Shown here: in pieces, positions 14,556-16,486 of the stretch
Layout of the letters: each line of letters opens with the position of its first letter
Numbering within the stretch: position 1 is the first letter of the stretch
Virus record (IMG/VR): IMGVR_UViG_3300046513_000114
Span: 1-37,202 of that record
DNA length: 37,202 bases
Source of the DNA: a virus
Strand: one strand, 5' to 3'
The notes under the pieces: generated by a model
Told to the model about the DNA's origin: nothing
Databases searched by the model: none
Seen by the model: only the letters and a program-made list of their open reading frames with translations
Translations under genes and position numbers: made by a program

Positions 14556-14986
14556 TGTCTGCCGCAGAAGACCAGCTCGAACTGTTCCAGCGGCGAAACC
14601 GCGCGGCTGACGCGGTCATTTCTCCCGGTGGATCGGTCCGTGGTGTGAATAATGGGGTGGGACCAACCAACGAGGTCCCGCCTGTGTCGACCCTGCGCCG
14701 AATCGAAACACCAGCCGCACGTTCCACCGATCCCCAATCTTCCCATGACGCCGCTGATCTGCACATGGCGCGCGGCCTTCGGCAGACCCACATCGCCGTG
14801 GTCGCTGCTGCCGTGCGCGCGTGCCCAGGCCTCACCAGCGCGGAGATAGCTGCGCGCACTGACCTAGAGCGCCACGAGGCCGCACGTCGTCTCCCTGATG
14901 CAATGACCGCGGGTGTCGTGCGGAAGGGCCCTGCGCGCGTCTGCACGATGAGCGGCAAGCTGGTCACGACATGGTGGCCTGCGTGA
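14555..14986 (+). CDS. Winged-helix protein of the replication region
   Basis: 143 aa. The first 70 residues are low in structure; residues 75-143 (AAVRACPGLTSAEIAART, then AARRLPDAMTAGVVRKG) look like a winged helix. Similar small winged-helix genes recur downstream (16845, 19545). It overlaps the initiator gene start by 16 nt. Probable DNA-binding regulator; target unknown. Confidence 0.65.
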   Translation: MSAAEDQLELFQRRNRAADAVISPGGSVRGVNNGVGPTNEVPPVSTLRRIETPAARSTDPQSSHDAADLHMARGLRQTHIAVVAAAVRACPGLTSAEIAARTDLERHEAARRLPDAMTAGVVRKGPARVCTMSGKLVTTWWPA

Positions 14987-15789
14987 GCACGACGCTTATG
15001 GGCCAGTGCTGGCCGCTCAAGATGCAGCCGACGGCGAAGTCGGTACTGATCTCATTGGCCGACAACGCCAACGATCAGGGCTACTGCTGGCCGTCGATCG
15101 CGACCATCTGCATCCGTACCTGCTTCAGCAAGCGGGCTGTCATTGATGCGATCGCCTGGCTGGAGAGTGCCGGAGCGCTAGTGGCAGATCGGACGAATGG
15201 TCGCCATACAACCTACGTCGTCACTCCTTCGAAGTACGTTGAACCGGTGCAGCAGGCGCACCAGTGCGAGAAAAGCACCGGTGCACCTCCCGCATCGGAA
15301 CCGGTGCAGCAGGCGCACCAACCGGTGCATCTCCCGCACCAACCGGTGCAGCAGCCGCACACTAACCATCAAGAACCATCAATAACCGTCAAGGAAAGCA
15401 ACCGTCAATCTGCGCGTGCGGATGACGCCACGGATCGCTTCGACGAGTTTTGGTCCGCCTACCCCCGGAAGGAGGGGAAGAAGGACGCGGCCAAGGCCTG
15501 GGCGAAGCTCAACCCGAGTTCCGACCTCGTGGCGACGATCCTCGCTGCGCTGAGCGTCCAGTCGAAGAGCCCAAAGTGGTTGGAGAAGGGCGGTCAGTTC
15601 GTACCGCACGGATCCACGTACCTCAACGGCGAGCGCTGGACCGATCAGGTAATTCCTGCGGCGCAAGACGTCGTGGTGACCGGCGCGTTCGCTCCGCGAG
15701 GCAAGCAGCAGCAGCTGGAAGAGCGCAACCAACGCGTCGCCGACGAGTGGCTCGCCGAGCAATCCGCCGCATCACAAAATCAACGCTGA
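14971..15789 (+). CDS. O-like replication initiator carrying the origin
   Basis: 272 aa. Residues about 10-90 form a winged HTH (TAKSVLISLADNANDQGYCW, then CFSKRAVIDAIAWLESAGAL). A linker at about 91-145 is made of PVQQAHQ-like 7-residue repeats; these are the translation of DNA iterons. The C-terminal part (FDEFWSAYPRKEGKKDAAKAW) is found in phage replication proteins that contact the helicase or its loader. The protein should bind iterons within its own gene, as lambda O does. ATG 14971 or GTG 14983 (GTGA overlap with the upstream stop) can be the start. Confidence 0.82.
   Translation: MVACVSTTLMGQCWPLKMQPTAKSVLISLADNANDQGYCWPSIATICIRTCFSKRAVIDAIAWLESAGALVADRTNGRHTTYVVTPSKYVEPVQQAHQCEKSTGAPPASEPVQQAHQPVHLPHQPVQQPHTNHQEPSITVKESNRQSARADDATDRFDEFWSAYPRKEGKKDAAKAWAKLNPSSDLVATILAALSVQSKSPKWLEKGGQFVPHGSTYLNGERWTDQVIPAAQDVVVTGAFAPRGKQQQLEERNQRVADEWLAEQSAASQNQR
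15243..15350. repeat. Five origin iterons inside the initiator gene
   Basis: ACCGGTGCA occurs at 15243, 15277, 15300, 15321 and 15342. The last three are exactly 21 bp apart, each followed by a CAGCAGGCGCAC- or CTCCCGCAC-type second half. A 21-bp period places the sites on the same DNA face. They code for PVQQAHQ/PVHLPHQ/PVQQPHT. Confidence 0.8.
15364..15408. repeat. AT-rich 9-mers next to the iterons (possible unwinding element)
   Basis: AACCRTCAA occurs at 15364, 15374, 15384 and 15400; the first three are spaced 10 bp. The stretch is clearly richer in A/T than its surroundings. It sits directly after the iterons, like the AT-rich region beside the lambda ori iterons. Confidence 0.65.
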
Positions 15790-15802: not shown

Positions 15803-16486
15803 ATGCAAGACAACGAAAGCACAAAATTCGCTGATCTGTTGACGGCCGCTATGGCGTACTACGGCAAGGAAGCATCGAAGTTCATGCTGAGCATCTTCTG
15901 GGATGCCTTGAAGCGCTTCGAGTTCGACGACGTGTCGCGGGCCTTTAGCCTGCACGCGCAGAATCCCGACAACGGGCAGTGGGCGCCTAAGGTCGCCGAC
16001 ATCGTAAAAATGATCGAGGGGTCGACGCAGACACAGGGCATGCAGGCCTGGGCGAAAGTGGCTGCCGCGATTGCCTCCGTCGGCAAGATGCGTTCGGTGG
16101 CTTTTGATGATCCGCTCGTGCACGTGGTGATCGGCGAGATGGGTGGCTGGTATTCGCTTTGCTCATCGATGGCAGAGGAAATGCCGTTCAAGGCGCGCGA
16201 ATTCGAGAAGCGCTACCAGGGCTACCGCGTCCGCCGCGAGGTTCCGGCGTTCTCTCCGTACCTGATCGGTGGCCACGAGTCCGACAACCGACTCAACGGT
16301 TTCAAGAACCCAACGAAGCCGGTGCTTATCGGTGACCCGGATCGTGCGGCGCTCGTGATCGAGCGTGGCTCGGAGCAGTCCGTGGTTCGCATCACCGACG
16401 GACGCGCCGCCGCAAAGAAGTTGGCGAACCGCCTCGGCGTCGCGCGCCAGGCGAATGACGATCCCGAACCGCCGAGGGCAGCGTGA
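15803..16486 (+). CDS. Replication-region protein in the P position (DUF6475-like)
   Basis: 227 aa. The first half is helical with FWDALKRFEFDDVSRAFSLH and GQWAPKVADIVKMIEG, a layout like DUF6475-type phage proteins and like helicase-loader-type proteins that follow an O gene. The C-terminal part is basic and flexible. A role in loading the host DnaB helicase is inferred from position. It overlaps the next gene as TGATG. Confidence 0.6.
   Translation: MQDNESTKFADLLTAAMAYYGKEASKFMLSIFWDALKRFEFDDVSRAFSLHAQNPDNGQWAPKVADIVKMIEGSTQTQGMQAWAKVAAAIASVGKMRSVAFDDPLVHVVIGEMGGWYSLCSSMAEEMPFKAREFEKRYQGYRVRREVPAFSPYLIGGHESDNRLNGFKNPTKPVLIGDPDRAALVIERGSEQSVVRITDGRAAAKKLANRLGVARQANDDPEPPRAA

Follow-up and report, generated by a model that had tools for sequence, protein, structure and literature searches.

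Descriptions of O-type phage origins usually take one phage at a time and centre on the iterons, which vary between phages. In the lambda origin four iterons lie in the middle of the initiator gene and a less stable tract adjoins them; the initiator has an N-terminal DNA-binding domain and the loader gene comes next. For lambda-type phages, the available part of a published account describes the second half of the origin as an AT-rich tract, without a phased direct repeat (PMC7466680). In iteron plasmids (RK2 oriV with TrfA; RepE) the iterons adjoin direct repeats in the opening region. One study reports that the plasmid Rep proteins, which have two winged helices, bind one specific single strand of the repeats of the DUE together with the iterons, that all of these repeats are needed, and that changing them abolishes replication (PMC4081077). 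For Pseudomonas phage MD8, the authors noted internal repeats in the O-like gene gp56, and the available portion of their account names neither a second motif nor conservation across phages (PMC8508860). Among the matches listed from the open-licence full-text literature on the 9-mer spellings, intragenic phage origins and DUE repeats, we found no prior description of the array reported below. The 9-mer spellings in open-access papers returned no title on phage origins among the matches listed. One literature match of AACCATCA together with iteron, phage and replication was discarded, the letters belonging to a PCR primer.

We analysed a virus record of 37202 bases (the window, over whose length all window-wide counts were taken). 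The window shares with lambda the O-like initiator, several intragenic iterons and the adjoining less stable tract. Next to its initiator gene lies a DUF6475 / phrog_10105 gene, a candidate helicase loader by its position. It differs from lambda in an array of AACCRTCA words, which lambda lacks. It resembles the iteron plasmids in that its iterons adjoin direct repeats; compared with the plasmid DUE 13-mers, the phage repeats recur every 10-11 bp and form part of a coding region. MD8 gp56 carries the same array type as the window. Upstream, Pfam and PHROG matches show genes for a CII-like protein and an S24 repressor, and we therefore take this to be the replication region of a lambda-like phage. 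The coordinates of all features are collected in Table 1.

Table 1. Features of the initiator gene and its putative origin in the window
Feature	Position	Strand	Basis or remark
O-like replication initiator gene	14971..15789	+	272 aa as listed; HTH_36, phrog_270 and phrog_391 matches
Part of the N-terminal winged-helix domain matched by Pfam HTH_36	15025..15174	+	profile match
Iteron 1, ACCGGTGCA with imperfect dyad arm GCGCA	15243..15260	+	word count
Iteron 2, frame differs from the other iterons	15277..15294	+	word count, frame check
Iteron 3	15300..15317	+	word count
Iteron 4	15321..15338	+	word count
Iteron 5	15342..15359	+	word count
Least stable 40-bp stretch of the origin, candidate strand-opening element	15361..15400		GC 0.40, neighbours 0.5-0.7; coincides with the array
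Array 9-mer 1, AACCATCAA	15364..15372	+	frame 0, NHQ
Array 9-mer 2, AACCATCAA	15374..15382	+	frame 1, EPS
Array 9-mer 3, AACCGTCAA	15384..15392	+	frame 2, TVK
Array 9-mer 4, AACCGTCAA	15400..15408	+	frame 0, NRQ
Initiator C-terminal part, FDEFWSAYPRK type	15409..15786	+	PHROG and comparison with relatives; low-confidence helices in the model
Next gene, DUF6475 / phrog_10105	15803..16486	+	profile matches; candidate helicase loader by position

The original prediction of an O-like initiator with a two-part origin inside its gene was supported. The product matches Pfam HTH_36 (8.4e-11), phrog_270 (1.6e-45) and phrog_391 'replication initiation O-like' (1.6e-29). Homologues begin with MS, which makes the GTG at 14983 the likelier start. 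In an AlphaFold2 model beginning at codon 14989, residues 1-80 form a confidently predicted winged helix (pLDDT 94-98), followed by a linker predicted to be disordered (pLDDT about 52-63) and then by a less confident helical C-terminal part. The iterons and 9-mers encode residues 85-140, almost exactly this linker. Profile searches against solved structures gave weak matches, the best being 2vn2 (DnaD-like, E 0.0015, titled chromosome replication initiation protein), which we take to be DnaD. Foldseek matched the model to generic winged helices at E 1.6e-3 or worse. Its winged-helix fold aligned with PDB 4pql (Z 9.1, rmsd 3.1, 81 aligned) and 4pt7 (Z 9.0, rmsd 7.2, 92 aligned), presumably the N-terminal domain of the plasmid initiator RepA (titles 'DNA binding protein' and 'initiator'); both tie with many unrelated winged helices and were absent from the sequence matches at E <= 0.1, so the likeness is one of fold only. 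Compared with the two winged helices of plasmid Rep proteins, one was confidently predicted here, and the low-confidence C-terminal part was barely probed by the fold comparison. For the DUF6475/phrog_10105 product, a search for a solved structural relative found none.

The iteron word ACCGGTGCA occurs five times in the window, all at 15243-15350 inside the initiator gene as predicted and nowhere else, against 0.34 copies expected from dinucleotide shuffles; the last three copies have a period of 21 bp. The reading of the iterons as PVQQAHQ-like heptads held for four of the five and failed for the iteron at 15277, which lies in another frame and reads TGAPPAS. The four AACCRTCAA copies proposed at 15364-15408 were likewise confirmed, are the only ones in the window and are far above chance (0.23 expected in the window). 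The first three are 10 bp apart, and the fourth follows 16 bp further, out of helical phase. They coincide with the lowest GC of the scanned stretch 15201-15480.

As a test on genes that had not been selected for the motif, we gathered 254 viral loci by similarity of the N-terminal domain only and, staying inside the ORF, took the 450 nt that follow the domain on its 3' side. Nine loci with less than 200 nt of linker were dropped and near-duplicates were merged, leaving 138 non-redundant regions. With no motif supplied, the two commonest 8-mers were AACCATCA (79/138) and AACCGTCA (75/138). AACCRTCA was present on the sense strand at least once in 106 and at least twice in 86 of the 138 regions, on the antisense strand in none, and in 20 Markov shuffles in about 3 (range 0-8); the search queries besides the window's own came from array-bearing phages, so that 106/138 is not a prevalence for the whole family. 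With the window's own domain as query, the exact 9-mer lay within 360 nt in 43 of 80 loci; it was missing from most enterobacterial-type loci, which came towards the bottom of the ranking. Copies per locus numbered 0, 1, 2, 3 and 4 in 32, 20, 32, 42 and 12 loci, respectively, and some of the 32 initiators without an exact copy bear variants. One such linker (locus L215) has a variant array of ATCCACCAATAG-like repeats with a 12-bp period behind AAAGGGTGACATC iterons.

The copies are always head to tail. Among 152 neighbouring pairs the spacing was 10 bp in 56 and 11 bp in 59, about one helical turn in 115 pairs together; 12 bp (13 pairs), 9 bp (4), 16 bp (5) and 20-24 bp (9) were rarer. Upstream of the array, a 7-mer was repeated at least three times in 97 of 106 array loci, and the gap from iterons to array had a median of 18 nt. 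The upstream words fell into 16 iteron groups by single linkage, a low estimate, as one group of 72 arose by chaining over CCCCCG-like ends that its words have in common.

When viral contigs were scanned for AACCRTCAANAACCRTCAA, at least 100 stretches came up. Among the 100 listed, 79 had the same kind of winged helix in the ORF over the array; by eye, the other 21 comprised 9 cut or frame-limited initiators and 12 that look like chance. In the true cases the pair lies just 3' of iterons of many sequences, for example AAAGGGTGCAAC, CCCCCGCAGCAGCTGC, GTCCGCCAGGCGGAC and CCCTGAACACGGTTC. A search of bacterial reference genomes for the doublet whose copies are separated by G yielded 24 stretches, of which 16, by eye, lay behind iteron-like repeats in an O-like frame (two of these, L197 and L204, show the same stretch). 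Bacterial chromosomes were rejected as survey ground, since doublets (24/369 and 15/289 genomes) were little above the chance level given by the reversed pattern (13/369 and 8/289), and loci L220-L262 of this survey were left out of the analysis. A further set of 80 loci, identical to their query at 100%, was also set aside. A 30-nt array probe gave 19 weak matches in plasmid records, none convincing, those with annotation mostly in lysozyme or peptidase genes.

The array is common to initiators with different iterons, different C-terminal domains by PHROG matches and different downstream genes (of 85 listed downstream genes 82 were carried into the comparison, and of 86 C-terminal parts 84). 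The C-terminal part is exchangeable between relatives whose origin is the same. One of them (locus L104) shares iterons and array with the window and has LPSWLPADLW in its C-terminal domain where the window has FWSAYPRK; judged from this pair, the array sits at the junction of exchangeable protein modules. The array is a DNA-level, oriented and phased element that initiators have in common even where their iterons, their C-terminal domains and the loader or helicase gene downstream of them differ.

That selection acts on the DNA and not on the encoded peptide follows from the reading frames and the synonymous sites. The 258 array sites are spread over all three frames, with 55, 136 and 67 in each. 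Within the linker, the serine of EPS/KPS is TCA in 135 of 144 cases (0.14 elsewhere in the gene), its proline is CCA or CCG in 137 of 144 (0.53 elsewhere), and glutamate is GAA in 116 of 116 (0.48 elsewhere). At the purine position A and G are used about equally in the three frames (25:27, 60:59 and 36:27), and the choice is silent in one frame only. A T precedes AACC at 25/55 and 30/67 sites in two frames and at 0/136 where it would give a TAA stop, so coding limits the DNA and not the reverse. The opposite reading, that selection is for the repeated peptides (NRQ/EPS/TVK) and the repetition of the DNA is a by-product, can draw on this need of the linker to remain open, but it is almost certainly wrong: one DNA word gives three different peptides, the synonymous sites are frozen, the choice of A or G is indifferent to silence, and the linker is predicted to be disordered. 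The idea that protein repeats and DNA are under equal constraint was also not supported, as iteron 2 and the 9-mers lie in different frames and the DNA is kept where the peptide is not. For the 9-mers, we looked for a peptide kept while synonymous changes destroy the DNA repeat, and the data showed the reverse; the 144 EPS/KPS peptides contained no recoded DNA apart from the 9 serines that are not TCA. For the iterons, the same question was addressed by comparing close relatives by eye. It is also improbable that the array is a mere AT-rich melting stretch whose sequence is held by composition and codon use without a binder. The array does coincide with the least stable stretch, with a GC of 0.43 against 0.59 on both sides (84 loci), and in 57 of the 84 its stability is below that of 90% of stretches of equal length. 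Melting, however, needs no fixed sequence, strand, spacing or frozen synonymous sites, and when AACCATCA was compared with its 280 rearrangements it led with its 79 loci, followed by its one-base shift ACCATCAA with 50, the next with 14, and a median of 0. In the 8 loci with a flank GC below 0.5 the array is still there and is little AT-richer than its surroundings (0.39 vs 0.45). Conservation of sequence, strand, spacing and synonymous sites supports the earlier suggestion that the phased 9-mers are a specific site rather than a mere melting region.

The varied iterons, C-terminal domains and downstream genes leave two candidates for what reads the array: a property that initiators conserve, or a host factor. 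The phage's own neighbouring product, a helicase loader or helicase reading the array in place of the initiator, is very improbable. The downstream gene is often of this kind (P-like 10, DnaB-like 8, DnaC-like 6 and phrog_10105 12 of 82), yet the same motif is accompanied by no single partner family, and a common partner was rejected on this mixture; DUF6475 lies directly 3' of 9 and phrog_10105 of 12 of the 82 other array-bearing initiators. A host protein common to many bacteria (DnaA, IHF, DciA or another replication factor), on which phages converge, is unlikely, though it deserves some weight: type A arrays (AACCRTCA) occur with varied iterons, C-terminal domains and downstream genes in phages of hosts as distant as Bordetella, Pseudomonas, Vibrio, Sphingopyxis and Microcystis, which suits a common host partner. 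The DnaA box has the consensus TTWTNCACA. The array word is no DnaA box, such boxes are rare in the initiator regions (4 of 138), and phages of one host genus differ in array type, all of which makes the proposed binding of DnaA to the 9-mers unlikely. To our knowledge the array does not match the IHF consensus either. The array type varies with initiator clade within Vibrio (A 2, B 3), Pseudomonas (A 3, B 1, none 1), Stenotrophomonas (A 1, B 1) and Klebsiella (B 1, D 1). One linker (locus L210) carries a DnaA-box-like TTATCCACA adjoining the iterons, a rare case in this set.

Related initiator clades bear the variant arrays AACCAGTCA and ATACATCA. Twenty-six named phages with the domain, lambda apart, comprised 9 of type A, 12 of type B (AACCAGTCA), 2 of type D ([AG]ATCCRTCA) and 3, Pseudomonas phage Itty13, Aeromonas phage 56 and mEp021, in which none of the four array types was found. 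Mapped onto a tree of 184 domains, of which 117 go with type A, 24 with B, 9 with C, 3 with D and 31 with none, the array types required 33 changes against a shuffled mean of 63.0, and none of 200 shuffles was as low; this tree has 78 columns and many open forks, and near-copies cluster by inheritance alone. Type B required 6 changes against 23.0 and type C 3 against 8.9, where types B, C and D were named after viewing the same data. In the sequences compared, the array variant tracks the initiator clade and not the host genus. This clustering favours the initiator over a host factor as the reader without proving it, as linked inheritance predicts clustering too.

We read the array as the probable second half of a lambda-style origin, a strand-opening element of specific sequence that the initiator would probably recognise, in the manner of the iteron-plasmid 13-mers. 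By analogy with lambda O, the N-terminal winged helix of the initiator would bind the fast-changing iterons as duplex, and the iteron-bound initiator would then melt the adjoining AACCRTCA array. The initiator, rather than a host protein, would read the array and hold it sequence-specifically, first on one helix face, or as one of the single strands, or in both ways. A repeat interval of 10-11 bp suggests that one face of the duplex is recognised, and single-strand binding would also be compatible with it. The held array would fix the site, strand and direction of helicase loading. On balance we lean towards this account as a whole, in which an iteron-bound initiator opens and holds the array of a two-half origin. 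We put forward a wider reading more tentatively, as possible though somewhat short of probable. AACCRTCA at every helical turn would be a single strand-opening code, common to a large part of the O-type phage origins across distant hosts and almost fixed while the iterons change. Initiators would then have two readers. The variable one would serve self-recognition through the iterons, and the conserved one would act on the array to open the strands and load the helicase directionally; whole clades would switch to new array words such as AACCAGTCA and ATACATCA. The array points to a putative strand-opening step common to phage origins. With a second element that stays fixed, the sequence by itself is enough to locate origins in unannotated phage genomes and to tell their orientation. 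It also brings an old question within reach of silent mutations, namely how an initiator other than DnaA opens DNA and gives the helicase its direction, because the different reading frames allow constraint from coding to be told apart from constraint on the DNA.

Two further observations concern the 3' side of the array. Five short array-bearing initiators (loci L019, L025, L046, L077 and L092) have, right after the array, a CxxC...C-rich, zinc-ribbon-like tail that replaces the usual C-terminal domain. GCGCG or CGCGC was found within 60 nt 3' of the last array copy in 54 of 105 loci, a modest excess over the 23 expected (largest of 50 shuffles, 32), and this block is possibly a GC-rich border.
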